A stretch of DNA of 64,000 bases, taken from positions 452,501 through 516,500 of the forward strand of contig NZ_CP044310.1 of assembly GCF_009664365.1 (NCBI RefSeq), written 5' to 3'. This document shows, one piece after another, positions 2,138 through 39,106 of the stretch. Below the pieces are notes generated by a model. It made no database searches. It was not told where the DNA came from and worked only from the letters and a program-made list of their open reading frames with translations. A program made the position numbers and the translations under genes. The first letter of the stretch is position 1. The number at the start of each line of letters is the position of its first letter. This stretch comes from Paenibacillus xylanilyticus. GTDB lineage: Bacteria; Bacillota; Bacilli; Paenibacillales; Paenibacillaceae.

Positions 2138-2896
2138 TCAGCGCTTCTGTGGTCGCCAGCGAACGAGCAGCTTCTCCAGCAGGGCAATAAACAGGAAGAG
2201 CAGCAGGCTGAGCGCGACAATAATCATGATCGCAACGAATAGACGATCTGTCCGGTAAGCGGACTTCTGAAGCATCATGTAATACCCGATCCCTTTGTCG
2301 GCTCCGATCCATTCAGCAATAATGGCACCCATAACGCTGTAAGTCGCGGCAATCTTGACACCAGAGAAGATGGAAGGCAGTGCGTGCGGGAGCTCCAGCT
2401 TCCAGAAAATTGGGCCGCGTCTCGCTCCCGCCATGCGCATGTAATTCATCATGGCGGCATCCGTACGTGTCAAACCATCCATGGCTGCGACAGCAACGGG
2501 AAAGAAGCAGACCAGGATGATGGTAATCAACTTGGGCAGCAGTCCGAATCCGAACCAGATCAGCAGGAGCGGAGCGAGCGCAATTGTCGGTATATTTTGA
2601 CTAAGAATAAGTAAAGGATACAGGGCAGATTTCAGAAAAGGAATCAGATGCAGTACCATGGCGATCAGCAGCCCAACCAGCGTACCGGCCGCGAAGCCAA
2701 TTAACGTGAGTTGAATGGTCGCCCATGCATGCATGCCCAGACGATCTGCTTGGGAGGCTGCTTCCTGTGCGATGTCGGAAGGTGCGGGCAGCATCCATTT
2801 CTCAATATGAAACAGGGACACGGCACCCTGCCATAGGGCTATAAAGAGAATAACCGCCACAATGGGCGGCCATACACTTTTGAAGTACGTATGCAT
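2138..2896 (-). CDS. thiX: ABC transporter permease, thiamine-precursor importer
   Basis: This 252-residue integral membrane protein has about six hydrophobic segments and the BPD_transp_1 cytoplasmic loop (EAA-type region near SIFSGVKIAATYSVMGAIIAEW). It belongs to the SsuC/ThiX permease group. Its ATG overlaps the TAA of the upstream thiamine-binding gene (TAATG), which indicates translational coupling, and the thiZ start follows 43 bases downstream. Together with the ATPase and ThiY it forms a complete importer. The precise pyrimidine transported cannot be told from sequence. Confidence 0.88.
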   Translation of the reverse strand: MHTYFKSVWPPIVAVILFIALWQGAVSLFHIEKWMLPAPSDIAQEAASQADRLGMHAWATIQLTLIGFAAGTLVGLLIAMVLHLIPFLKSALYPLLILSQNIPTIALAPLLLIWFGFGLLPKLITIILVCFFPVAVAAMDGLTRTDAAMMNYMRMAGARRGPIFWKLELPHALPSIFSGVKIAATYSVMGAIIAEWIGADKGIGYYMMLQKSAYRTDRLFVAIMIIVALSLLLFLFIALLEKLLVRWRPQKR

Positions 2897-3186
2897 TAGC
2901 GATATTTCTCCGTCAGGGTATCCATGCTGAAGCCGTTCGGGCTATGGGCGATTTTGATCTGGGAGATGATGCTTGGACTGCCAGCCTCCACGAGCACCTC
3001 ATGCATTTTACGGACAACTTCCAGCAGTTCCTCCAGCTCACCTTCCATTGTGGTATCGAGCGGATTAACCTGATATTTCAAGCCGGATTGCTGGATCACT
3101 TCGATCGCCCGATCTACATACGGATACGAATTTTCGCCATTCGGCGTTTTGGGAATCACTTGAATGCTAAGCAGTGTACTTGCCAT
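2896..3186 (-). CDS. thiamine-binding protein of the MTH1187/YqgV family
   Basis: This 96-residue protein matches the small ferredoxin-fold Thiamine_BP family (MTH1187/YkoF-like), with the typical LSIQVIPK start, a central repeat-like segment and a conserved SPNGFSMDTL-type tail. Family members are soluble and bind thiamine or its precursors, but their cellular role is unsettled. Its position inside a TPP-riboswitch operon between thiY and thiX supports thiamine-related binding. The upstream gap holds an intergenic palindromic repeat, and the ribosome site GAAAGGAG precedes the ATG. Confidence 0.85.
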   Translation of the reverse strand: MASTLLSIQVIPKTPNGENSYPYVDRAIEVIQQSGLKYQVNPLDTTMEGELEELLEVVRKMHEVLVEAGSPSIISQIKIAHSPNGFSMDTLTEKYR

Positions 3187-3240
3187 GAGAGATCACGGCT
3201 CCTTTCGAGATGAGTAAGTAGAACATCGTGAATGTACACT

Positions 3241-3365
3241 TGACCACTTCGATTGCAGCACCCTCTTCCGATCGCTGTTATCACCGGATTTCTTGATTCC
3301 ATTTTTAATGGGGAAATCCGGCGATAAAGGCGACCACTTTGTTTCTACAGATGGGTTCAGCACTC
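3241..3365 (-). repeat. intergenic palindromic element, copy A (A/C2 subtype)
   Basis: Read on the minus strand, this stretch shares ordered blocks with 26294-26425. These are GGAACGNAGAG, ATCTGTAGAA, a stem TTATCGCCGGATTT pairing with AAATCCGGTGATAA, then AACAGCGATCGGAAGA and a degenerate tail ending near GAAGTGG. It lies between thiY and the thiamine-binding gene, in the orientation of the latter and about 55 bases before its start. It may be part of the operon transcript. No function is known to me. Confidence 0.8.
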
Positions 3366-3407
3366 TTCGTTCCGGTGTACATAAAAGTCGACTTATACAG
3401 TTATATT

Positions 3408-4448
3408 TTATTGGGGTAAAAAATCGTTCGTATACGCTTGGGATACATCGATCTGCTCATCAAGCAGTTTTTTGCTGAACATCCAGTCCGTGTAGTTCTG
3501 CCACACTTCCTGTTTTTGCTCACCCCAGCGCGGAGCGTCATCCTTGTATTTCGGGCTCAGCCATTTCTGACTTGCCACCACAAGGTCCTTATCGAGATCA
3601 GGTACAGCCTTGATTAAAATGTCCGCAGCTTCTTCGGGATGATCAATCGCATATTGATACCCTTCAGAAGTAGCCTTCATAAATGCCTTCACCAGTTCGG
3701 GGTCGTTCTGAATGGTCTGCTCGTTCGTCACGAGTACAGGCGTGTAATAGTCCAGCGCATCGGAATAATCCTTCACATACAGCATGTCGAGGGGTTCTCC
3801 GCGCAGCTCGGCTTCAATGCCGGTCCATGCATAGAAGATCCATGCAAAATCAATGTCCCGTTTCACTGCGGTAAAAAAGTCGGCGTCGCCCATATTAATA
3901 TTTTTTACTTTGGACACATCGGCGCCTTCGCCTTCCATAATGGATTGCATAACCGCTTCTTCAACGGGTGATCCCCAGCCGCCATAGGATTTGCCTTCGA
4001 AATCCTTGGGTGATTTGATTTTTCGATCCACCGGAGCGGCGAATCCAGACGTATTATGCTGAATGACAGCTGCAATGGAGACGAGCGGAACGTCCTGTGT
4101 GCGGGCCTGTGTTACGCTCTCCTGATAACTTACCCCAAAAGGAACCTCGTTTGAGGCTACCATCGTATCCGCACCGCCAGCTCCCGGCTGTACAATCTCG
4201 ACATTCAAACCTTCTGCCTGGTAAAACCCTTGATCCACGGCGGCATAAAGGCCGGTGTGGTTCGTATTGGGTGTCCAGTCGAGCACGACCTTAACATCCT
4301 TCAATGCTGCGCTGTCACCTTCGCTGCTGTTTTCAGTGGTGCTGCTGCCATTCTGTCCTGCAGGTGCTGCTTCCTTGCTGCCGCATGCAGCTACGGTGAC
4401 CAGTGTCATACACAAGAGCAGGAGTCCAATCATTTTACGCCATCTCAT
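3408..4448 (-). CDS. thiY: ABC transporter substrate-binding lipoprotein, thiamine pyrimidine precursor
   Basis: The 346-residue protein has a lipoprotein signal peptide with lipobox VAAC (Cys22) and then the NMT1/THI5-like fold. The segment DWTPNTNHTGLY near residue 57 is the hallmark of ThiY-type proteins that bind formylaminopyrimidine or HMP. It is the first gene after the TPP riboswitch. A 221-base gap with a palindromic repeat separates it from the next operon gene. The substrate class follows from family plus riboswitch; the exact ligand is inferred. Confidence 0.9.
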   Translation of the reverse strand: MRWRKMIGLLLLCMTLVTVAACGSKEAAPAGQNGSSTTENSSEGDSAALKDVKVVLDWTPNTNHTGLYAAVDQGFYQAEGLNVEIVQPGAGGADTMVASNEVPFGVSYQESVTQARTQDVPLVSIAAVIQHNTSGFAAPVDRKIKSPKDFEGKSYGGWGSPVEEAVMQSIMEGEGADVSKVKNINMGDADFFTAVKRDIDFAWIFYAWTGIEAELRGEPLDMLYVKDYSDALDYYTPVLVTNEQTIQNDPELVKAFMKATSEGYQYAIDHPEEAADILIKAVPDLDKDLVVASQKWLSPKYKDDAPRWGEQKQEVWQNYTDWMFSKKLLDEQIDVSQAYTNDFLPQ

Positions 4449-4619: not shown

Positions 4620-4677
4620 GTGCAGGCGTTAGAGAGGTGGCTGCAGCACATGGCTGGGCCAATTCGATATACTCCGA

Positions 4678-4762
4678 TTCCTACGCTGGCATGATCCAGA
4701 TCAGGTCTAAGGGTTAGTATCTTGATGGGATACACTCTCAGCCGGCCAATTCCGACTCCCCT
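4678..4762 (-). promoter_or_regulatory. TPP riboswitch aptamer (thi box)
   Basis: The minus strand carries the full thi-box core in order: AGGGGAGTC, GGCTGAGAG, ACCCTTAGACCTGATCTGG and ATGCCAGCGTAGGAA. The terminator at 4592-4619 and thiY follow. This directly supports thiamine-pyrophosphate repression of the downstream ABC operon. Confidence 0.97.
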
Positions 4763-4797
4763 GGGAAACTATGAAGTTACGGGCATTACTAGGTGTA

Positions 4798-10683: not shown

Positions 10684-10865
10684 ATGAAGGCTACAATTAT
10701 AAGTTCAAGCGGGGATCTGAAGGATTGGGCGTACCTTAGGTATCTTTTTTTTCGATCATCTCGGTACTGTCGTTTCAGAAGTGCATTAAGGTTGAGGAAA
10801 TGAAACAAAAGGCAAGTGAGATGTATAAAACAGGTTACCATCTGAGAACCAACTACAGATCATAG
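10684..10865 (+). pseudogene. possible frameshifted small gene in the 10603-10928 gap
   Basis: An ATG at 10684 opens a 39-codon frame ending at 10803 (start MKATIISSSGDLKDWAYL). After a run of eight T (about 10744-10751), a neighbouring frame continues to a TAG at 10863-10865 with a protein-like hydrophilic tail (KVEEMKQKASEMYKTGYH). Joining the two needs one frameshift at the T run. This could be a remnant, a slippage-expressed small gene or chance. No other feature was seen in this gap. Confidence 0.2.
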
Positions 10866-12936: not shown

Positions 12937-13530
12937 ATGACACAGTTTGCATTAATACGTCACGGAAGCACGGCATGGAATAAAGAGAAACGGTCTCAGG
13001 GACAGACGAACAATCCACTGGATCAGGAAGGGAGAGAACAGGCGGTTTTGCTTGCGGAAAGGCTGAGTTCGGAATCGTGGGATGCCATCTATGCCAGTGA
13101 TCTGGGGCGTGCACATGAGACGGCGAAGATTATCAGTGAACGGCTGGGTATAAGTGAGATTCATCTGGACCCAAGGCTGCGTGAGATGGGCGGGGGTCAG
13201 GTGGAAGGAACAACGGAGGCAGAACGTATAGCCAAATGGGGCCCAGAATGGAGCACTCTGGAGCTGGGACGGGAAGCTGCAGAAGCTGGGACGATGCGTG
13301 GCAGTGCTGCGATCGAGGATATATGCAAAGAGCATCCTGATGGTAAAGTGATTGTGGTCAGTCATGGGGCCATTCTGCGTAATACCCTCCGAGGATTGGT
13401 ACCTGCGCTGGATGTTGGCACGAAGTTATCCAATACCTCGATTACCCGAATAGAAAAGAAAGCTGGATCCTGGGCCTGCGAATTATACAATTGCAGTATC
13501 CATCTGAATTCTGCAGAGGATTCCTTATAG
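12937..13530 (+). CDS. histidine phosphatase family protein
   Basis: This 197-residue protein has the phosphoglycerate-mutase-like core. RHGSTAWN near residue 8 carries the catalytic His, LREMGGGQVEG carries the acid Glu, and VVSHGAILR the second His. This type includes broad phosphatases and alpha-ribazole phosphatase-like proteins; the substrate is unknown. ATG 12937 follows GAGGG. The stop is immediately followed by the ATG of the DUF2785 gene at 13531, indicating tight coupling. Confidence 0.88.
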   Translation: MTQFALIRHGSTAWNKEKRSQGQTNNPLDQEGREQAVLLAERLSSESWDAIYASDLGRAHETAKIISERLGISEIHLDPRLREMGGGQVEGTTEAERIAKWGPEWSTLELGREAAEAGTMRGSAAIEDICKEHPDGKVIVVSHGAILRNTLRGLVPALDVGTKLSNTSITRIEKKAGSWACELYNCSIHLNSAEDSL

Positions 13531-14367
13531 ATGAATGCAACTGAACTTAAAGGGCAATTACAGCTTATACAATCGAAGAATTTTGCGGCCGATGAGGTAG
13601 AGCGACCTTACGAACTGGCGCTGCATATGTTACAGCACATTGGAAGTACGGATCCGGTCCTTCGAGATGAGCTTATATATGTTACGTTTGCAACCTGGAT
13701 CGGACAGGGGATATTTTCAGCAGAACAACTCCGTGTTTTGCTCTATAAAGCAATGGATGATCAGCATCTTTTCTATGGGATCGGAGAGAAAGGAAGGGAC
13801 AGCGTATTTACACGGGCCTTTTCCGTCCTGCTGCTGCCTCCCATCCTAAACATGGATCGTCAGCGGAACTTTCTGATCAAGGCAGATATCGAGGCTATTC
13901 ATCACCGATTGACCACATACCTGAAGGAAGAGAAGGATGTTCGCGGATACGTCGATGAAAAAGGTTGGGCTCATGCTCCTGCACATGCCTCCGATGCGGC
14001 TGAAGACCTTGCTCAATCCCCATATATGGATGAAACGGCGTTGAAAGAACTGTTGGACTCACTCGCTGTGAAGATAACGGAATCTACCGCAGTATACATC
14101 CATGATGAGGACCAGCGTATTGCTCATGCGGTAGTGACTATAGTTAGGCGCAAGTTGCTCAATAGATCGGATCTTGCAGCATGGATTGCTGCACTTCAAC
14201 AGGCATGCATAGATCAGACCGGTGAAAGAAGCTATGTGGAGATATGCCGGATTAGCATGAACGTACGTGTCTTTTTGCAGACTCTGTATCTGGTGATACG
14301 AAAAGAAGAACAAGATCCATTTTCAATAGTTAGGGAGCTTGTTCTAAACGCTTTGGAAAATGAGTGA
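13531..14367 (+). CDS. DUF2785-family protein
   Basis: This 278-residue protein is largely alpha-helical and contains the segment DVRGYVDEKGWAHAPAHASDA, characteristic of DUF2785. It has no signal peptide or membrane segment. It starts directly after the histidine phosphatase stop, and its end overlaps the longest open form of pxpB. Function is not established. Confidence 0.75.
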   Translation: MNATELKGQLQLIQSKNFAADEVERPYELALHMLQHIGSTDPVLRDELIYVTFATWIGQGIFSAEQLRVLLYKAMDDQHLFYGIGEKGRDSVFTRAFSVLLLPPILNMDRQRNFLIKADIEAIHHRLTTYLKEEKDVRGYVDEKGWAHAPAHASDAAEDLAQSPYMDETALKELLDSLAVKITESTAVYIHDEDQRIAHAVVTIVRRKLLNRSDLAAWIAALQQACIDQTGERSYVEICRISMNVRVFLQTLYLVIRKEEQDPFSIVRELVLNALENE

Positions 14368-17473: not shown

Positions 17474-17687
17474 TAACCTTTCCAATATTGTCACGTTTAC
17501 GAACGGATTCATGGATTCACCATAGGTGGGGTGGGTACACTATAAGTACAGGCTTTTATGTCACAACAAACTTATAAATAAGCAGGCCGATGTTTACTCG
17601 ATAACATCAAAAAATGTCCTTAAGATGGGTATTTAATGAGGTGTCCTGTAAGCCTATGGCTTAGCTATCTCTGTTTTGAAGAGCTGT

Positions 17688-17849
17688 GGGAGCAGTGAAG
17701 GGGACGGAATCGATTCTGAAGAAGCGTCAGCGGTCACGTTTGTCTCTGAATTATAACCTTACAACAATAAAATTAAGAAAATTTAGAGACAACAGTGATC
17801 GGAAGAACGATCCGTAACCGTAACGACTGCCCATATGTACTTCAAAACT
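17688..17849 (+). repeat. intergenic palindromic element, copy B (B/C1 subtype)
   Basis: It starts GCAGTGAAGGGGACGGAATC, followed by GATTCTGAAGAAGCG. The stem TTGTCTCTGAATT pairs with AATTTAGAGACAA, then ACAGTGATCGGAAGAACGATC and CCGTAACCGTAACG follow. Outer arms GGG(A)GCAGT (17688-17696) and ACTGCCC (17826-17832) can pair and close the whole element. It lies about 30 bases before the ribosome site of the next gene, in that gene's orientation. Head and tail match 26221-26530; the central stem sequence does not. Confidence 0.85.
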
Positions 17850-17876
17850 ACCCCCAAACCGAAAGGAGCATGTCCC

Positions 17877-18293
17877 ATGAATAAGTCGGAACTCGAACAA
17901 AACATTGTAAAGGCATTGGAAAACAACCCTTTTTGCAGCTTCTCAACTGTGGAAAATGGTAAACCGAAATCCCGCTATATGGCGCTTTTCAATGATGGCA
18001 TGAATATTCACTTGGCGACGAACCGCCGCACGCATAAGGTGGAGGAGCTGGAGAACAACCCGAATGTCAGTCTTTTGCTCGGCTATGAGGCGGGTGGCTC
18101 CAAAGAAGTGGTTGAGATCGAAGGAACCTGTGAAGTGACCAAGAATGAAAACCTGCGCGAAGAAGTGTGGAATGATGAACTGAAAGCATGGTTTGACGGA
18201 CCGAACGATCCGAATTATGTGATTTTGGATATTACACCAGTACGCATTGAATATACAGGTAAGGACCATGAGCATCAGGTGTGGGAACAATAA
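17877..18293 (+). CDS. pyridoxamine 5'-phosphate oxidase-like protein (general stress protein 26 type)
   Basis: This 138-residue split-barrel flavin-binding family protein has the segments FCSFSTVENGKPKSRYMAL and LATNRRTHKVEELENNPNVSLL, typical of general stress protein 26-like proteins. These bind FMN or F420-type flavins, but activities vary. ATG 17877 has AAAGGAG upstream, while the frame is open to 17835. It is a single-gene unit with a terminator at 18357. The preceding palindromic element forms most of its upstream region. Confidence 0.85.
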   Translation: MNKSELEQNIVKALENNPFCSFSTVENGKPKSRYMALFNDGMNIHLATNRRTHKVEELENNPNVSLLLGYEAGGSKEVVEIEGTCEVTKNENLREEVWNDELKAWFDGPNDPNYVILDITPVRIEYTGKDHEHQVWEQ

Positions 18294-18356
18294 AATAACC
18301 GAATGAAGTGCTCTCTGGCAGCACTGAATCATCGGATATATCTTGATGGACATATA

Positions 18357-18388
18357 AACCGTGAGGCCGCAGGGCTTCGCGGTTTTTT
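18357..18388 (+). terminator. intrinsic terminator
   Basis: ACCGTGAGGCC pairs imperfectly with GGGCTTCGCGGT, and six T follow. Confidence 0.75.
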
Positions 18389-18446
18389 GCTGGCTAATGA
18401 GCAGGGGGAAATGGATACATATGTAAGTGTTATGTAATATACGTAT

Positions 18447-18586
18447 TTAACACATCTCGTAAACTATATATTAACAAAAAAAGAGAGAATAATGTCGAAA
18501 TTCCGCATGATTATGTAAAGTTGAACCCTTATGTGCGGATAATGTAAAAAATAATGCTTTTCAACCACGCTTCATTGCGTTATGAT
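18447..18586 (+). promoter_or_regulatory. promoter region of the secreted nucleotidase
   Basis: TTTTCA (18558-18563) and TATGAT (18581-18586) are 17 bases apart, implying a leader of about 170 bases. Upstream are TTATGT at 18511 and 18529, TAATGT at 18540 and TAATGC at 18552. Further upstream, TTAACA (18447), TAAACT (18460) and TTAACA (18471) resemble a degenerate Pho box. The rest of the 18389-18766 gap shows nothing I can name. Confidence 0.4.
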
Positions 18587-18766
18587 TTGGAATGTAAACG
18601 ATACGCACAGATATGAATAGATGTTCATGTGAGATAAACTAACCTGAATTCAGCTGGTGAAGACCTTGATTTCAGCAAGCACAACCCATGAAATCTATGC
18701 TATTTCTGCGCCTATTCGTTTGCACACTATGGCATGATTCAATGTACATAACCGGGAGGGGTTATT

Positions 18767-21013
18767 TTGAAAAAGAACAAAAAAGTATTATCAAGCCTGA
18801 CTGCCGCTTTGGTTGCATTAAACGTGCTTGCAGTATTTCCGGTACCTGTATCGGCTGCAGATGCTGCCAAAGTAAAATTGCGGATCATGGAAACCACGGA
18901 CATTCATGACAATCTGCTTAATTACGACTACTACTCCGATAAAGAGACCGATCAATATGGACTCGCTAAAACAGCTACGCTGATCAAAAAAGCGCGTGAT
19001 GAAGCGAAAAACAGCCTGTTGTTCGACAATGGTGACTTGATTCAGGGTAACCCGCTCGGAGACTATGTAGCCAAAATTGATCCACTTCAAAAGGGTGAGA
19101 CTCACCCTGTATATAAAGCAATGAACCTGCTCGATTATGATGCCGGTAACATCGGAAACCACGAGTTTAACTATGGTCTGGACTTCCTGGACATGACGCT
19201 GGAGGGCGCCAACTTCCCTTATATTAATGCGAATGTCTATATCGATGACGGCGATGATGATGAAACGAACGACAAGAATTACTTCACCCCCTATGAAATT
19301 CTGGACAAAAAAGTAACGGATGAGAGCGGTAAAGAGCACACGATCAAAGTGGGTGTTATTGGATTCGTACCGCCACAAATCATGCAGTGGGACAGTGCTA
19401 ATCTGGAAGGCAAAGTCATTGCCAAGGATATTATTGCTACAGCCAAGAAATTCATTCCGCAAATGAAGGCTGAAGGTGCAGACATTATCGTGGCCATTCC
19501 TCACTCCGGTTTTGAAGATATCCCTCAAACGGATCTGATGGAAAACTCGGTGCTGTACCTGAGCCAGGTAGAGGGCATCAATGCGATTCTGTTTGGACAT
19601 GCCCACAAGGTATTTCCAAGTGCTGATTTTGAAGGCAAAAAGGGAGTAGATCTTGAAAAAGGCACCATCAATGGCGTTCCAGCGGTGGAGCCAGGCTTCT
19701 GGGGTGATCATCTCGGAATCATTGATCTTGATCTGGAGCTGGTGGATGGCAAGTGGAAAGTGGTAGATTCCGCGACAGAAGCACGTCCAATCTATGACAC
19801 TGCGAACAAAAAGCCATTGGTTGACGCAGATCAGGAGATCATCGACGCGGTTCATGAAGAGCACGAAGGTACGCTTGAGTATGTACGTGGTCCGGTCGGA
19901 GAGACAACGGCTCCAATCAACAGCTTCTTCGCGTTGGTTCAGGATGATCCATCCATTCAGATCGTGACGAATGCTCAGAAATGGTACGTGGAGAAACACA
20001 TGCAAGGAACCGAGTATGAAGATATCCCGGTATTGTCTGCAGGAGCTCCATTTAAAGCGGGCGGTCGTTCAGGTGCTTCGTACTATACGAATATCCCTGC
20101 AGGCACCATCGCAATCAAAAACGTAGCGGATCTGTACGTATATCCGAATACGGTACATGCCGTTCTGGTTAACGGTGCTGAAATCAAAGAATGGCTGGAA
20201 TGGTCTGCAGGCCAGTTCAATCAGATCGACCCGGCTAAGGGTGGACAGCAGCAGCTGATCAACATGGATTTCCCAACGTACAACTTTGATGTTATCGATG
20301 GTGTAACGTATCAAATCGATGTGACTCAGCCTGCCAAATATGATTCCAAAGCAACCGTGGTAAATGCATCGGCTAGCCGGATCAAGGATCTGAGTTTCAA
20401 TGGCAAACCGATCGATCCGGAGCAAAAGTTTATCGTGGCAACGAATAACTATCGTGCTTCTTCGTCCAAACTGGCCAACCCGGATGGTAAACGTATCGTT
20501 TTGGCAGCACCGGATGAGAACCGTCAAGTCATCATTGACTATATCCGTGATAACAAAACAATCAATCCGGCAGCGGATGGCAACTGGTCACTGGCACCAA
20601 TTAAGCCTTCTGCAAGTGTAACTGCAGCAGCACTGAACGATCTTGAAGTGGTGTTTGCTTCTTCTCCGGATGCCAAAGCGCTGGTTGAAGCTAACCCGGC
20701 AATGTCGTTCATTGGTACGAATGACGAAGGTTTTGCCGAGTATGGCTTGAAATTGACTGGAGAAGCAGCGGTGACTCCTGAACCGGGAACGAAGCCTGCT
20801 CCAGCCCCAACACCTGCCCCAACACCAAAACCAGAACCGCAACCTGAGAAACCAGCAAGCGGCAAAGTGGTATATGTGGTGAAAAAAGGGGACAACCTGT
20901 ACCGCATCGGCTTGAAATATGGTGTGGACTGGCGCAAGCTTGCCACAGCCAACAAAATTTCAAATGTACATCAATTGAAAGTTGGACAGAAAATCGTAAT
21001 CCCCGCTTCTTAA
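18767..21013 (+). CDS. secreted 2',3'-cyclic-nucleotide phosphodiesterase / 3'-nucleotidase with LysM anchor
   Basis: The 748-residue protein has several parts. A signal peptide ends near VSA (residue 30). A calcineurin-type metallophosphoesterase follows, with the metal motifs TTDIHDN (Asp45, His47), DNGDLIQGN, GNHEFNYG, HSGFE and GHAHKVF. Next come the 5'-nucleotidase C-terminal domain, a Pro/Thr/Lys linker near 665-695, and one LysM domain at the end. It releases phosphate and nucleosides from nucleotides outside the cell and binds peptidoglycan by LysM. TTG start with GGGAGGGG. It stands alone, ending in a terminator. Confidence 0.92.
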   Translation: MKKNKKVLSSLTAALVALNVLAVFPVPVSAADAAKVKLRIMETTDIHDNLLNYDYYSDKETDQYGLAKTATLIKKARDEAKNSLLFDNGDLIQGNPLGDYVAKIDPLQKGETHPVYKAMNLLDYDAGNIGNHEFNYGLDFLDMTLEGANFPYINANVYIDDGDDDETNDKNYFTPYEILDKKVTDESGKEHTIKVGVIGFVPPQIMQWDSANLEGKVIAKDIIATAKKFIPQMKAEGADIIVAIPHSGFEDIPQTDLMENSVLYLSQVEGINAILFGHAHKVFPSADFEGKKGVDLEKGTINGVPAVEPGFWGDHLGIIDLDLELVDGKWKVVDSATEARPIYDTANKKPLVDADQEIIDAVHEEHEGTLEYVRGPVGETTAPINSFFALVQDDPSIQIVTNAQKWYVEKHMQGTEYEDIPVLSAGAPFKAGGRSGASYYTNIPAGTIAIKNVADLYVYPNTVHAVLVNGAEIKEWLEWSAGQFNQIDPAKGGQQQLINMDFPTYNFDVIDGVTYQIDVTQPAKYDSKATVVNASASRIKDLSFNGKPIDPEQKFIVATNNYRASSSKLANPDGKRIVLAAPDENRQVIIDYIRDNKTINPAADGNWSLAPIKPSASVTAAALNDLEVVFASSPDAKALVEANPAMSFIGTNDEGFAEYGLKLTGEAAVTPEPGTKPAPAPTPAPTPKPEPQPEKPASGKVVYVVKKGDNLYRIGLKYGVDWRKLATANKISNVHQLKVGQKIVIPAS

Positions 21014-21031
21014 TATATAGCGGATACTGAA

Positions 21032-21063
21032 GGCCGACAGTCAACAGACTGGCGGTCTTTTTT
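21032..21063 (+). terminator. terminator of the nucleotidase gene
   Basis: AGGCCGACAGTC pairs imperfectly with GACTGGCGGTC, and six T follow. Confidence 0.75.
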
Positions 21064-21224
21064 ACTGCAAAAATGTTTAAGACTGTAGCAAAAACGTTCA
21101 TACCGGAAGTCATCAAAACACTAGAGATTAATTTTATGACCCATGCTATAATATTTACAAACTTTGGGTATATACCATTTAACATTAATTGAAATAGAAA
21201 CATAAACCGGCAAGGGGGTTCTAC

Positions 21225-22268
21225 ATGAATTGCAGTGGCTGCAGTCCAATCTATCCAATTGAGGATCAAGGTACTCTGTATCTGCGTCCCGTTTTCCCCG
21301 TTTTGCTGGAATTGCTGAGAACGTTGGGTGTGCATGTTGAACATTCAGATGAAGTGATATGGATGAACTATACGAATGCCGAATCTGTACAAGACTGGCT
21401 GGAAGCCATACAGAAGCTCGAAGTCATCCGTCCGGAATCCATTACAGTACAGGTAACTCCAATTCAAGAACAGGCGGATCAAGCAGGCTGGATTAGTCTT
21501 CAGATGATGAAATCTCGATTCAAGCATGCAGATCTGGTATCGATTATTTTGAACACTCAATTCAGCAGTCATATGCAGCCTATTGTTGATGCCAATGAAC
21601 AGATTGTCGGATTCGAGTTTTTGCTTCGACCTTCCGAAAATGGCAAGACGTTTAGCCCGTATAACTTGTTTGAGGTTGCCCGGGACACGGGTTTACATTC
21701 CTTTTTGGATCGGACTGCAAGAATCACAGCAATCGAAACAAGTGCAGCTTTTTTGCCTCATGGTGTTAAGCGCTTTGTGAATTTTCTGCCCTCCTCTATA
21801 TACAATCCTGAATTTTGCCTGACCCATACGTTTGAAGCGATTGAGCGCTTGGAACTGGATCCCAAGGATTTTGTGTTTGAAGTTGTGGAAACGGAACAGA
21901 TCCAGCATATGTCCATTCTCCAGCATATTTTTTCGGTGTATCGTTCCCGTGGAATGTCGGTAGCACTGGATGATGTTGGGGCAGGGTATTCGACCATCGA
22001 ATTAATGAATCGGCTGGAGCCTGATTTTGTCAAAATTGATCGCAGTCTGATTGATCAGTGTGATCGTGACCCGGTGAAACAACAGCAAATTATGGATATT
22101 GTGCAGATGTCACGCCGATTCGGGGGACGTGTGCTTGCTGAAGGCATCGAACGCATGGAGGAATTCGATTTTTGTCGCTCCATAGGGATCGAGCTGGCTC
22201 AGGGATACTACTTTGGCAAACCGTCGCCCAAGCCGCCACAGGGCCCATACCGTCAAACATCTGCCTAG
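21225..22268 (+). CDS. EAL-domain cyclic-di-GMP phosphodiesterase
   Basis: This 347-residue cytosolic protein has an EAL domain from about residue 105. Key positions read EFLLRP (EAL variant), NFLPSSIYNP, FEVVETE, LDDVGAGYS (DDFGTG variant), VKIDRS, LAEGIE and AQGYYFGKP. Metal and catalytic residues appear present, so hydrolysis of c-di-GMP is plausible. The N-terminal 100 residues start with MNCSGCSPIYPIE, a possible thiol or metal-binding CxxC, and match nothing I know. AAGGGGG precedes the ATG. Confidence 0.88.
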   Translation: MNCSGCSPIYPIEDQGTLYLRPVFPVLLELLRTLGVHVEHSDEVIWMNYTNAESVQDWLEAIQKLEVIRPESITVQVTPIQEQADQAGWISLQMMKSRFKHADLVSIILNTQFSSHMQPIVDANEQIVGFEFLLRPSENGKTFSPYNLFEVARDTGLHSFLDRTARITAIETSAAFLPHGVKRFVNFLPSSIYNPEFCLTHTFEAIERLELDPKDFVFEVVETEQIQHMSILQHIFSVYRSRGMSVALDDVGAGYSTIELMNRLEPDFVKIDRSLIDQCDRDPVKQQQIMDIVQMSRRFGGRVLAEGIERMEEFDFCRSIGIELAQGYYFGKPSPKPPQGPYRQTSA

Positions 22269-22294
22269 ATAAATGCCATTTTAATGTGTACATA

Positions 22295-22330
22295 TAAACA
22301 AGTCACTTCCAATTAGCGGAGTGGCTTGTT
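22295..22330 (+). terminator. probable terminator after the EAL gene
   Basis: AAACAAGTCACT and AGTGGCTTGTTT form a stem with small mismatches. No long T run follows, so efficiency is uncertain. Confidence 0.55.
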
Positions 22331-22355
22331 TGACATGTCGTGTAAATTATTGTAA

Positions 22356-22382
22356 TCAAATAAATTTGAACTTAAGCCGATA
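22356..22382 (+). promoter_or_regulatory. sigma-D-type (motility) promoter of the chemoreceptor gene
   Basis: CAAA at 22356-22359, 15 bases, then a perfect GCCGATAT at 22375-22382. The Bacillus sigma-D consensus is TAAA-N15-GCCGATAT. It lies about 115 bases before the chemoreceptor start. Confidence 0.8.
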
Positions 22383-22496
22383 TATAAGATAACCCTATCG
22401 CGAAGATTTGGTATGAAGAGAAGGGTTAAGGTAGACATGGAGAGGGTCCTACATAAAAACAAAGAAGGATTGAACTTTTTAGAGGGGGAAAAGCAG

Positions 22497-24590
22497 ATGG
22501 GGGAGAATCTGGACCAAGGGCAAGTGAAAAAGGCTGCCAAACCAGTCAAACAGAAAGAAAATAAAACAAAAAAGAAGAACAAGAAAAAGGGCTTTGTCTG
22601 GAGTATACGAAATAAATTGCTGGTATCCTTTCTGGCCGTACTGCTGGTGCCCAGTGTGACCATTGGAATGATCACACTGTTGATTGCCGATCGCACGGTA
22701 GAAGGTCAACTGATGGATAGTGCCAAACAAAGTGTAAGCACGACGAATTCAATTATTGAAACCCATGTCAATGCGAAGATTCACGATATCAATTATTTTG
22801 CCGAATCCATTCGGACGGACATGCTTAGCGGGGATGGTGGCCTTTCTGCATTGGAAGTGAAACTACAGCAGTATGTCGGATTGCATCCTGATGCGCTGAA
22901 TATATTTGTAGGAACTGAAGATGGAACCATGGTTAGGGGGAAAGAAACAACCGGCAGTGCACAAGGGTCCAACTATGATCCAAGGGAGCGGGAATGGTAC
23001 AAGCTGGCGATGGCCAACCCGGGCAATCCCGCTGTGTCGGCCGTGTCCAAGAATACGGATGGAGTAACGGTTGTGTTTATCTCCAAAACACTGGAAGATC
23101 AATCTGGTGTAGTAGGTCTGTCTTTGGATCTAACGGAACTTAGCGAACAGGCTTCCATTAAGGTGGGCAAGGAAGGGTACGTTATTATCATGGATCCGGA
23201 GAGAAATTATATCTCCTCACCTGTGGTGGAATCTGGCACGCAAGAAACGTCAGAGGCTTTGGACCCCATGTTTGCAGAACCAGAGGGATCATTCGATTAC
23301 ACCTACAATGGTGATTCCAAAATGATGATCTTCTCCACCAATGAAGCTACGGGCTGGAAGATTGGCGGAACGATGTTCCAAAGTGAATTGTCCCATGCCA
23401 GTAAAGACATTCGGATGGCAACCTTAATCGTCATTCTGGCTGCGACCTTCCTCACGCTAATTTTCATAATTTGGTTTACACGTTCCATGCTGCGTCCAAT
23501 CCGGCGTCTGCAGGAGTCTGCTCGTGCGGTGAGCAAAGGGGATCTGACGGTCAAGATGGAAACCGGACGAAAAGATGAAGTCGGTGATCTCGCCAAGTAT
23601 TTTGAGCGAATGGTAGATAACCTTCGAATGATGATTCTGGGTGTACAGGAGACGACGGAGCAGGTATCGGCTTCCTCTCAGGAATTGTCGGCGAGTGCGG
23701 AGCAAACGACCAAAGCCATTGAGCACTCGACACTTTCCATTCAGGAACTTGCGGAAGGTGCAGAGCAGCAGGTGAAGAGCGTGACGGACGGATCGGGCCA
23801 GATGAGTCGTATGGCCGAAGATGTCCGCATGATGTCTGAACGTGTGCAATCCATTACGCAGAACATGCGGAATACATCCGGAGCAGCTTATTCCGGTAAT
23901 GAAGCAGCGGGACAGGCCATGGATCAGATGAGCAGCATTCAGGAGACAGTGGAACAGCTGGCGGTGGTGGTTCAGTCCTTGAATGCGCGGTCGACAGAAA
24001 TTGGAAACATGGTTAATGTCATCGCCACCATTTCCAAACAGACCAACCTGCTTGCACTGAACGCGTCCATTGAAGCGGCGAGAGCGGGGGATGCTGGTCG
24101 CGGATTCGCAGTGGTAGCAGGTGAGGTTCGGAAACTGGCGGAAGAATCCGGCAGCTCTGCAGCACAAATCGGTGAACTCGTTCATAATATCCGTCTGGAT
24201 ATGGATGCCGCCATGGATGCCATGACAGCTGCCCAGACCCGGGTAGAGGATGGCATTCAGGCAGTAAATACTTCGGGCCAATCATTCGCACAGATTCGTG
24301 TGGCCGTTGAAGATGCAGCCCATACGCTCGATGATCTGTCTCAAACAACGAAGCAGCTGGAAGAAGGAGCGGCTCGTGTTGCCCAAGCTATGAATGATAT
24401 TTCTGTCGTAACCCAGGAGAGTGCTGCGAATACGGAATCCGTATCGGCTTCCTCTGAGGAACAGCTGGCATCTGTAGAAGAGATTGCGTCATCATCCGCA
24501 CATCTGAACAGTATGGCGGAACAATTGCAAGGCCTGCTGGGCATGTTCAAAATGGTGGAAGATACGCCGAAAAACAAGGACCAGGCATAA
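22497..24590 (+). CDS. methyl-accepting chemotaxis protein with dCache sensor
   Basis: The product has 697 residues from ATG 22497, which follows GAGGGGG; the frame is open to 22413. A Lys-rich cytoplasmic N terminus (about 35 residues) precedes TM1. An extracellular dCache-type domain of about 250 residues follows ([11 protein letters not shown] and [13 protein letters not shown] segments), then TM2, HAMP and the MCP signalling domain with the conserved hairpin tip [33 protein letters not shown], split across residues about 505-540. It couples ligand sensing to CheA. The ligand is unknown. The sigma-D promoter supports membership of the motility regulon. Confidence 0.95.
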
Positions 24591-24730
24591 CCCGGTGATA
24601 TTACTTGTTCATAGAATAAAATAAAGATAGACAATCCTCCTGTTGCCCTGTATAACTATATCGTTGGTTTTTCTCTTAGATTGCGGTGTATTTATAATAG
24701 TAGTAATAGGGTGAAGGTACAGGAGGATTT

Positions 24731-26023
24731 ATGACATACGTAGCTATACTAATCTTTGCATTAACCGTTGCGCTCGTGATCTGGCAGCCACGTGGACTGG
24801 GGATTGGCTGGTCTGCTTCAGGTGGAGCCGTGCTCGCCCTGCTATGTGGTGTCGTCAGTCTGAATGATGCCTCCGATGTGGCATCCATCGTATGGAATGC
24901 AACACTGGCATTTGTCGGCATCATTATGATTTCACTGATTCTGGATGAGACCGGGTTCTTCGAATGGGCTGCACTTCATATGGCGAGACTCGCTGGAGGG
25001 AATGGACGCAGACTATTCATCTATTCCATATTGCTCGGAGCAGCAGTGTCTGCTTTATTTGCCAACGATGGTGCGGCGCTTATTCTGACTCCGATTGTTC
25101 TCGCCATGGTGCGTGCGCTGAAATTCGATGAACGCATGGTACTTGCATTTGTCATGGCAAGCGGGTTTATTGCCGATACCACGTCACTGCCGCTGATTGT
25201 CAGTAACCTGGTGAATATTGTGTCAGCCGATTATTTTGGAATTACGTTTGTGGAGTATGCTGTGCGGATGATTGTTCCCAATATCTTTTCCATGGTAGCG
25301 AGTACAGGAATGCTGTATCTGTTTTATCGTAAAAGTATCCCTCATCGCTACGACATCTCCGCCGCTCGCGATCCCCAAGAAGCCATTCGCGATCCGCGGA
25401 TGTTCCGTATTGCCTGGTATATGCTTGCGCTGCTTTTGATAGCCTACGTCTCAAGTGAGTTTCTGCCGATCCCGGTATCGGTTATCGTGGGCGCCGTCGC
25501 TCTGCTATTCGCCATATTGGCACGCAAGAGTGAAGCGGTTGACCTTAAACGTGTTGTCAAGGAAGCGCCTTGGTCCATTGTGGTCTTCTCGGTAGGCATG
25601 TACATCGTTGTATACGGACTGCGTAATGCCGGGTTAACAGATTATCTGAGCCGCTGGCTGGATGCCATAGCAGAGCATGGCCTGCTGGCTGCATCAGTGG
25701 GCATGGGATTGATTGCAGCGGTGTTATCATCGGTGATGAACAATCTGCCAACCGTGTTAATTAACGCACTGGCCATCCAGGATGCACATACCGAAGGCAT
25801 TGTTCGAGAAGCGTTGATCTATGCCAACGTGATTGGATCTGATCTGGGTCCCAAAATGACGCCGATCGGCTCATTGGCCACATTGCTCTGGCTGCATGTG
25901 TTGTCGCGGAAGGGTGTAAAGATTACGTGGGGATATTATTTCAAGGCAGGTGTTATCCTGACGATCCCGACATTGTTGATTACCTTGGCTGGACTGGCCC
26001 TGTGGCTGTGGATTTTGAATTAG
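24731..26023 (+). CDS. arsB: ArsB-type arsenite/antimonite efflux permease
   Basis: This 430-residue membrane protein has about 11-12 helices and the ArsB/CitMHS-type features [30 protein letters not shown] and [22 protein letters not shown]. It matches the single-protein arsenite exporter family. ACAGGAGG precedes the ATG. No arsR, arsC or arsA is nearby, so induction by arsenic is not supported by context. Export of a different oxyanion is possible. Confidence 0.87.
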
Positions 26024-26032
26024 TAGAAAAGG

Positions 26033-26077
26033 CTGCTTTTCTCAGGTGCCATTGCACTTGAGGAGGGCAGTTTTTTT
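26033..26077 (+). terminator. terminator of arsB
   Basis: CTGC-TTTCTCAGGTGC pairs with GCACTTGAGGAGGGCAG around CATT, and seven T follow. Confidence 0.8.
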
Positions 26078-26130
26078 ATTTTCTTCTATATATTGAAGTT
26101 TAAATATCATTAACAAAAAGTATTTACATT

Positions 26131-26159
26131 AGACCGGCCTTTTATTGGCTGGTCTTTTT
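26131..26159 (+). terminator. second hairpin terminator
   Basis: AGACCGGCC and GGCTGGTCT pair with one wobble around a short loop, and five T follow. It may back up the first terminator. Confidence 0.75.
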
Positions 26160-26220
26160 CTATTTACTCACCTCTCCCAAGGCGGTGGATTGAAACGTCT
26201 GGAAACGACCAAACAAACCC

Positions 26221-26530
26221 GTAGCAGTGGAGGGGACGAAATCGATTCTGAAGAAGCGCTGGCCTGCTGCTTGAAGTTTTTTTACATTACATTGGAACGG
26301 AGAGGACAGCAATAATCTGTAGAAGCGAAGCGTTCGCGTTTATCACCGGATTTTTACCAAAGGGAAAAATAATGAAATCCGGGGATAACAGCGATCGGAA
26401 GATTGTTCTGTCAGCGTAGTGGCACGATGTAATTTACGTGAAGCAGAGCCAATACAGCGATCAGAAGAACGATCCGTAACCGAAACGGTCGCTCATGGAG
26501 TTATTTGCCTTCCATATATTTCAAAACACC
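26221..26530 (+). repeat. nested pair of intergenic palindromic elements, copies C1 and C2
   Basis: The outer element (C1) begins GCAGTGGAGGGGACGAAATC and TCTGAAGAAGCG, as copy B does. Its left arm GCTTGAAG plus TTACATTAC (26269-26290) can pair with GATGTAATTTACGTGAAGC (26426-26444). Its tail GATCAGAAGAACGATC, CCGTAACCGAAACG again matches copy B. Between the arms lies C2 (about 26294-26425), which matches copy A: GGAACGGAGAG, ATCTGTAGAAGCG, stem TTATCACCGGATTT with AAATCCGGGGATAA, then AACAGCGATCGGAAGA. The pair sits upstream of pstS in its orientation. Confidence 0.85.
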
Positions 26531-38837: not shown

Positions 38838-39062
38838 GGATGAGAACGAGCGGGAGAGACCTGGGAAGGCCATTGGTTTCAGTAGGCTGCCAGGCACCGA
38901 AGGAGCAAGCCGCTGCGCACCCGGCGCAGGTGGTTAATCTCTCAGGTAAATGTACCATCGTTGGACGCAGCTCTGGAGAGTGCGCGAATGCGCCACCCAA
39001 GGGGTATATGATGAGAAGGGTACCCCATGGGGCGGCCTCTGATCATGAAACTCTCAGGTAAC
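38838..39062 (+). promoter_or_regulatory. tandem glycine riboswitch (gcvT element)
   Basis: Two aptamers are in tandem. The first has GAGCGGGAGAGACC, CACCGAAGGAGCAA (about 38895-38908) and AATCTCTCAGGTAAA. The linker GGACGCAGCTCTGGAGAG leads to the second, which has CCACCCAAGGGG, AAACTCTCAGGTAA and the closing AGGACAGAGAG. An intrinsic terminator follows directly. The downstream genes encode L-serine dehydratase rather than the glycine cleavage system. Confidence 0.94.
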
Positions 39063-39063
39063 G

Positions 39064-39106
39064 AGGACAGAGAGAGGGCCTAAAGCCTTCTACTGTCCTT
39101 TTTTGA
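39064..39106 (+). terminator. expression-platform terminator of the glycine riboswitch
   Basis: AGGACAG and CTGTCCT enclose an inner AGAGGGC/GCCTTCT stem, followed by six T. Its 5' arm overlaps the end of aptamer II, allowing mutually exclusive folding. Confidence 0.88.

Follow-up and report, generated by a model that had tools for sequence, protein, structure and literature searches.

The 64,000-nucleotide stretch of Paenibacillus xylanilyticus analyzed here (NZ_CP044310.1, positions 452,501 to 516,500 of the forward strand; hereafter the window) carries four copies, A, B, C1 and C2, of a dispersed non-coding repeat that has a core of ~160 nt, reaches ~200 nt with its arms, and is intergenic in Paenibacillus, often within operons. 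RNA read from the repeat's own strand is predicted to form one long hairpin broken by conserved purine-rich internal loops, which by eye set GNA opposite GNA and GNAGAAGCG opposite CGGAAGA. On balance, we favor the view that these copies belong to a family of mobile intercistronic repeats that is new, is structured at the RNA level and acts in the manner of the ERIC and bcr elements, likely through mRNA processing or stability.

Four related elements sharing head and tail blocks had been noticed in this DNA from its letters alone (the original prediction), and all four are present at the claimed positions with blocks matching that description. Copies C1 and C2 are likewise both found within 26221-26530; they are, however, not side-by-side neighbors, as C2 sits in the apical loop of C1. 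The TTACAT/ATGTAA pairing assigned to C1 belongs in fact to the inserted C2, whose terminal arm it forms, and the stem belonging to C1 itself is, by eye, the GCTT../..AAGC part. Folding z-scores are −6.48 for the B region, −4.47 for the A region and −2.07 for the C1 plus C2 region. Coordinates are collected in Table 1.

Table 1. Repeat copies in the window and their immediate setting (window positions)
Feature	Positions	Strand	Basis or remark
Copy A, type 1, with outer arms	3209..3406	-	covariance-model core 3226-3383
Setting of copy A	between NMT1/THI5-like gene (3408-4448) and Thiamine_BP gene (2896-3186)		operon behind TPP (thiamine pyrophosphate) riboswitch; Pfam
Likely remnant, 5′ half of an older type 1 copy that hosted nested copy B	17570..17605	+	by eye
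Copy B with closing outer arms	17673..17848	+	GTTTTGAAG (17673-17681) / CTTCAAAAC (17840-17848); sequence and fold
Copy B core, type 2	17682..17844	+	model match; followed by PNPOx-family gene from 17877
Copy C1 (type 2), 5′ half, split by C2	26221..26286	+	boundary by eye
Copy C2 (type 1), TTACAT..ATGTAA, nested in C1 apical loop	26287..26432	+	model core 26284-26440
Copy C1 (type 2), 3′ half	26433..26496	+	boundary by eye

Two stem subtypes, which we have named type 1 and type 2, occur within the one family. Type 1 is built on the stem TTTATC(C/A)CC..GGGGATAAC with a lower stem resembling GTGCAGAACCA..TGGTACTGCA, and often ends in TTACAC..GTGTAA with arms like TATAAGTTGAAC..GTTCAACTTATA. Type 2 carries the stems TTTGTCTCC..GGAGACAAC and GACGGAATCG..CGATCCGT; its ends are unlike those of type 1. 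In the family at large, arms differ from copy to copy yet pair within each copy. Some copies of either subtype bear an optional extra module of ~38 nt at one fixed position, after GAAGCGAAGC. By eye, this module, TAAAAGCTTTCTGAAAGAAAGCTACTTCGGAAGCATA (L021:4006-4202 and other insert-bearing copies, both subtypes), resembles an added junction arm, and in short copies GCGAAGCGTTCGC could fold into a hairpin of its own, in competition with the TCGC/GCGA stem.

The closing outer arms described for copy B are indeed present, and they are general rather than special to B. Among 63 copies of the P. xylanilyticus genome, complementarity between the two flanks of the same copy averages 8.79, against 5.89-6.35 for flanks taken from different copies, and the corresponding values in named species are 8.13 against 5.93-6.40; the same comparison gave no excess of complementarity at 80-120 nt out from the element. 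At site 2 of L013 (L013:6020-6310, G000), the 5′ arm TGATGAATGAA is complementary to TTTCATTCATA, a stretch of host flank also found in the empty site of G012 (L262), so that the arm looks like an inverted copy of the flank; this is one instance.

Covariance model R1 was built from an alignment (A1) of 23 copies of this genome aligned without structure, from which RNAalifold derived 32 pairs, 17 of them changed on both sides. Copies are numerous well beyond the four of the original prediction: on the P. xylanilyticus chromosome (6,447,596 bp), R1 matches 74 places end to end at E≤5.3e-5, in addition to weaker matches and opposite-strand shadows arising from the palindromy. The 16-nt tail motif, with up to two mismatches, occurs at 71 places in the genome, compared with one for the pattern read backwards. 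Seven tail-motif places without a model match (C1 apart) were inspected as possible ends of a longer autonomous element, and this idea was rejected: by eye, the place at 1990977 resembles a decayed 3′ half and the other six are coding or chance occurrences. One relative (G034) has at least 150 R1 matches, all end to end.

With respect to taxonomic range, R1 matches were found in all 36 same-genus genomes (P. xylanilyticus included), in 4 of 23 others of the order, and in 9 of 121 genomes of the class, all nine within the same family; the 20 listed of the 112 class genomes without a match all come from other families. An exact motif scan of named genomes returned at least 119 stretches. Among the 80 of these that were listed, 73 belong to named Paenibacillus, one to Bacillus sp. 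FJAT-27264 and six to other phyla or genera. R1 matches 68 of the 80 loci, that of Bacillus sp. FJAT-27264 included (a P. polymyxa locus, L181, also carries copies), and none of the six others (L153, L169, L171, L173, L177 and L182), which we take as chance; six Paenibacillus motif loci (L130, L156, L157, L178, L184 and L191) also lack a match. The plasmid collection contributed two P. cellulosilyticus replicons and the phage collection no record, while 13 of 19 viral-collection stretches have R1 matches (L243, L245, L246, L249-L252, L254-L256 and L258-L260). Tandem arrays of three copies each plus spacer occur in P. xylanexedens and P. cellulosilyticus (L141:1228-1777 and L163:7140-7863; periods of 182 and 244 bp), and G012 has two type 2 copies at site 4 of L013.

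The statement that no named family matches is upheld in that no Rfam 15 family reaches its gathering score: a scan of the window returned only TPP and glycine riboswitches, and the region of copy B gave five matches at E≤10, the best at E 0.29 and all under the gathering score. The top-ranked results of a literature search, which included few subscription papers, held no description of such a Paenibacillus repeat.

Conservation of the fold was assessed through covariation. In an alignment of copies from named species (A2, 103 rows), 95.0% of paired cells are complementary, compared with 81.3% in shuffled controls and at most 50.8% when the pairing is slid, and 445 cells are changed on both sides where 114 are expected. 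Because the copies are related, significance was judged against a tree-aware null in which the observed substitutions of each column were put on random branches (20 replicates). Under this null, the non-redundant form of A2 (67 rows) gives E<0.05 for 7 of 32 helix pairs and for 0 of 12,371 other pairs. Several helix pairs vary rarely or never and are hence uninformative for covariation. Checked in this way, the covariation asked for with the original prediction is significant at helix pairs alone, clearly on this alignment and weakly on two others considered below.

A second signal concerns the strand on which the fold is maintained. Where selection acts on a fold in RNA, G·U is tolerated in the transcribed strand and A·C is not; a palindrome kept as DNA makes no such distinction. 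From 304 aligned matches we removed 59 with gaps or representing opposite-strand shadows and 70 that were redundant, which left 175 copies whose core cells comprise 5050 Watson-Crick, 219 G·U, 51 A·C and 229 other combinations. G·U is ahead at 21 helix pairs and A·C at 6, with a tie at 5; a single wobble pair is G·U in 89 of the 175 copies and A·C in none, and excluding it leaves 129 against 51. As a mutational control, third codon positions of 55 genes gave 1176 versus 1174 changes, a rate ratio of ~1.29. Since the excess of G·U over A·C is greater than this mutational bias, it is most likely as RNA that the core is maintained, and the conserved object is probably an RNA read in the direction that, for most copies, is also that of the neighboring genes. 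Selection on a fold, one of the two explanations offered originally, is therefore supported for the core.

With regard to the other explanation, mobility or replacement is supported by the comparison of orthologous sites. Occupancy was judged at 14 sites of this genome in four relatives (~87-95% identical at L021), with one case lacking data, and 45 of the 55 site-genome cases are occupied, eight of them by the other subtype. The site of copy A is empty in all four relatives, the ~198 bp present here being matched by 6 bp in three of them (G003, G028, G031) and by 4 bp in the fourth (G012); site 2 of L013 lacks the element in G012; and of two L021 sites, one is empty in three relatives and the other in two, with what looks like a scar (TTTACACC|CTATAG) in one instance. 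Subtypes are swapped at copy B in G003 and G028, at site 3 of L013 in G003 and G031, and at L055:10116 in all four. In the last case (L055:10116-10275), P. xylanilyticus has type 1 and the relatives (L307-L310) have type 2 within outer arms that are largely shared, CATTTATATG..CATATAAATG, so that the core seems to have been swapped like a cassette inside standing arms. Nesting occurs in either direction, type 1 in type 2 at C and type 2 in type 1 at B in G070. At the remnant upstream of B, a complete type 1 element encloses type 2 in G070, and G003 and G028 have type 1 alone; C1 occurs without C2 in G028 and G031, and the C2-in-C1 nest in G003 and G012. Filled and empty sites differ by precise gaps with no consistent target duplication, and one empty site resembles a deletion scar; several of these turnover patterns fit loss as well as gain. 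Mobility or replacement is thus supported, but a structure-dependent mechanism of it, as originally proposed, is conjectural.

These same patterns bear on a possible though unlikely alternative, in which the repeat is purely selfish, MITE-like DNA (a miniature inverted-repeat transposable element) with no RNA role. Its palindrome would then persist because a transposase uses it, or through the correction of quasi-palindromes as DNA is replicated, and its intergenic place and orientation would merely show where insertion is tolerated. Empty and filled sites, subtype swaps, nesting and the tandem arrays of some copies all agree with such an element, as do arms that pair without a clear G·U bias and antisense copies that fold equally well. 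The repeat is also small, high-copy and non-coding, as MITEs are, with no gene called within any of its 78 places in this genome. In opposition to this alternative, DNA pairing or palindrome correction would not favor the large core excess of G·U over A·C, including the one wobble found in 89 of 175 copies, and the core is conserved above its flanks at one orthologous site. That site is the likely argB junction, where 16 of 21 orthologues were used and gaps counted (core identity 0.80, flanks 0.63-0.70, gene start 0.84). At the likely argB and argD junctions the element is kept in ~20 genomes (21 and 19 distinct copies), with pairing at 95.2% and 94.6% and with six and four pairs showing at least two Watson-Crick types. 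Moreover, there is no clear target duplication, and no transposase partner was found in a search that covered the single family Y1_Tnp (PF01797). This search of the P. xylanilyticus genome returned one gene, read as IS200-like and lying between CCACCCG.. hairpins (L103:1348-1941), and the nearest copies of the repeat are more than 200 kb away from it. An origin of the RAYT/REPIN kind was rejected, since the genome has no Y1 transposase besides this unrelated, IS200-like protein.

The position of the copies is consistent with an RNA that is transcribed together with its neighbors. Using genes called with a simple codon model, we classified the 78 places (74 strong and 4 weak) by orientation relative to the upstream and downstream gene: 57 are same/same, 9 opposite/opposite, 9 opposite/same (divergent gaps) and 3 same/opposite (convergent gaps). 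A binomial test was applied to strong places (54 versus 9), for which p-values are overstated, copies being treated as independent. Replication does not drive this orientation. With arms assigned from the GC skew of the loci (positive at all 29 loci below 3.3 Mb, negative at all 28 beyond it), tandem gaps hold 52 sense and 9 antisense copies among leading-strand genes and 5 sense and 0 antisense copies among lagging-strand genes, so direction follows the genes. Most copies at the 66 places with a co-directed downstream gene stop 30-67 nt ahead of its start codon. In the 54 strong same/same copies, the median distance to the next start codon is 48.5 nt, and both spacers are at most 75 nt in 21. 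Since copies are usually sense to both genes and shortly before a start codon, most would be transcribed.

A location ahead of start codons, together with conserved internal loops and covarying stems, is also what a metabolite-sensing leader of the riboswitch class would show. We nonetheless consider such a leader very improbable, as the 30 scanned downstream genes share no common pathway, many copies lie in tandem gaps with short spacers or in convergent gaps, and there is no Rfam match; the diversity of the downstream genes was decisive in setting it aside. Specifically, a Pfam scan of 30 of the 66 listed downstream genes (63 distinct) revealed functions in glycolysis, purine, amino acid, potassium and peptide transport as well as chaperones and regulators, with one gene lacking a family. 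Enolase, KdpC, SAICAR synthetase (PurC), AICARFT/IMPCHase (PurH; its junction, at 776782, is one of the four weak places), HSP90, an OppC-like protein, Asp23 and a thiamine-binding protein are among them. Consecutive AA_kinase and Aminotran_3 genes, which we read as ArgB and ArgD, are each downstream of a copy, and copies thus likely occupy arg, kdp, pur and enolase junctions. GAUAA/UUAUC stems in the leader of P. riograndensis thiC (PMC5670726) suggested a further instance of the element, an idea unsupported by thiC loci of other genomes: 2 of 30 have a match, both off the leader, and the TPP aptamer was placed in the 12 loci scanned for it.

A role in terminating or attenuating transcription is similarly hard to credit. 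The hairpins are strong, and for six of the nine antisense tandem copies a stop codon is no more than 40 nt away. However, only 5 of 63 non-redundant copies of this genome have a run of five T in the 20 nt that follow the model end (element-strand read-out scanned), and sense copies sit between the genes of likely operons.

Several observations weigh against a fold selected for an effect on neighboring transcripts. Tree-aware covariation is weak in the alignment of copies from this genome (A3, 63 rows; 1 of 32 helix pairs) and in that of relatives plus viral contigs (A4, 45 rows; 2 of 32), with 0 other pairs significant in either. The outer arms show no clear strand asymmetry (46 G·U, 32 A·C), and their pairing may be owed to something other than what keeps the core. 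The eight antisense copies scored pair as well as the 48 sense copies (92.5% versus 92.0% Watson-Crick), as would be expected if the element itself, and not the local mRNA, were under selection, or if these insertions were recent. Named species show a weaker sense bias: the four orientation classes, in the order given above, hold 33, 11, 7 and 15 of 66 copies there (11 of 77 not classifiable), so that convergent gaps account for 15. Furthermore, the 10 of 55 orthologous cases that are empty indicate that those copies are dispensable, subtype swaps mean that cores get replaced, and gene conversion between copies could mimic compensation in place.

A further alternative is that the RNA itself is the mobile unit, a self-structured transcript being copied back into DNA with a preference for transcribed intergenic or hairpin-loop targets. 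We regard this as improbable. The RNA-strand signature of the core, seen also in the few informative cells of antisense copies (G·U 4, A·C 0), a sense bias that tracks gene direction rather than replication, and the nesting of one element in the apical loop of another would agree with it; against it, no enzyme was identified in the search limited to Y1 transposases, nor any intermediate, and antisense copies require a separate explanation. Equally speculative is a broader version, in which the folded sense-strand RNA would be the unit that is transposed or selected, its RNA-dependent spread leading to transcribed gaps and to its own hairpin loops, with cassette-like cores and co-option in core operons across the family.

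Our preferred model, that of a mobile intercistronic repeat with a function in RNA, can be put as follows. Copies would spread to, or be retained in, intergenic gaps, mostly sense to both neighbors and near the next start codon. Judging from this bias and position, transcription would make most of them part of an mRNA, either between cistrons or in an untranslated region. By analogy with known repeats, the RNA hairpin could then be cut, bound or block decay, for example as an RNase III target or as a 5′ barrier shielding the downstream cistron, and so may alter the stability or relative output of the flanking cistrons.

Activities of this kind have been reported for ERIC and suggested for bcr3. 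ERIC, of ~127 bp (69-127 in Y. pestis), folds into one long stem-loop, and in Yersinia is reported to act on neighboring genes as RNA hairpins (PMC2267715). The Paenibacillus element is alike in folding to a single long stem-loop. It differs in range, ERIC being found in enterobacteria, Yersinia and Vibrio, in copy number (at least 150 per genome in one relative), and in its two subtypes, whole-element nesting and G·U/A·C signature. The MITE-like bcr1-bcr3 of the B. cereus group often share a location in untranslated regions or operon gaps, and genes co-transcribed with bcr3 had longer mRNA half-lives, which the authors consider inconclusive with regard to cause (PMC3446304); among the 121 class genomes, R1 matches none outside its own family. 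NEMIS, of the MITE class, are inserted beside coding sequences, transcribed and folded; MITEs have terminal inverted repeats of 15-30 bp and insertion-sequence ancestry, and MITE-like repeats are described as transcribed and acting on neighbors (PMC3733652, where RNase III processing of meningococcal mRNA appears as the title of a reference). The Paenibacillus element lacks a clear target duplication and a partner in the one transposase family searched. REPs (repetitive extragenic palindromes) are 20-40 bp long, and one of their ends carries a GTAG or CGTC tag (PMC3733652). The REP, BIME and REPIN systems with RAYT (TnpA-REP) resemble the Paenibacillus element as high-copy extragenic palindromes, and differ in that the latter spans ~200 nt. 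The family appears to be new, yet of the transcribed-structured-repeat kind; its standing as a MITE, in the transposon-derived sense, is conjectural, and the comparison with ERIC and bcr is by description only.

Within the window, the operon that contains copy A consists of NMT1/THI5-like, Thiamine_BP, permease and ATPase genes and is preceded by a TPP riboswitch at 4660-4772 (minus strand). What appears to be the same operon is listed as one RNA-seq-detected unit in P. riograndensis (Table 3 of PMC5670726). Tandem glycine riboswitch aptamers are located at 38841-39072 (plus strand). Two further differences from relatives were noted: positions 13510-14365 (~856 bp, mostly a DUF2785 gene) correspond to only 8-10 bp in G003, G028 and G031, and ~120 bp at 10741-10860, which are not the repeat, are missing in G003 and G031 (130 bp versus 10 in G028).

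In terms of broader significance, a repeat with no Rfam family is present in more than 70 copies (at least 150 in one relative) in gene gaps that include likely arg, pur, kdp and enolase junctions. The finding bears on the question, raised by ERIC, REP and bcr, of whether such folds are selected as RNA or kept as DNA palindromes, and here the wobble asymmetry of the core favors RNA. If the hairpins act on mRNA, they would constitute a genome-wide post-transcriptional layer that annotation has missed.

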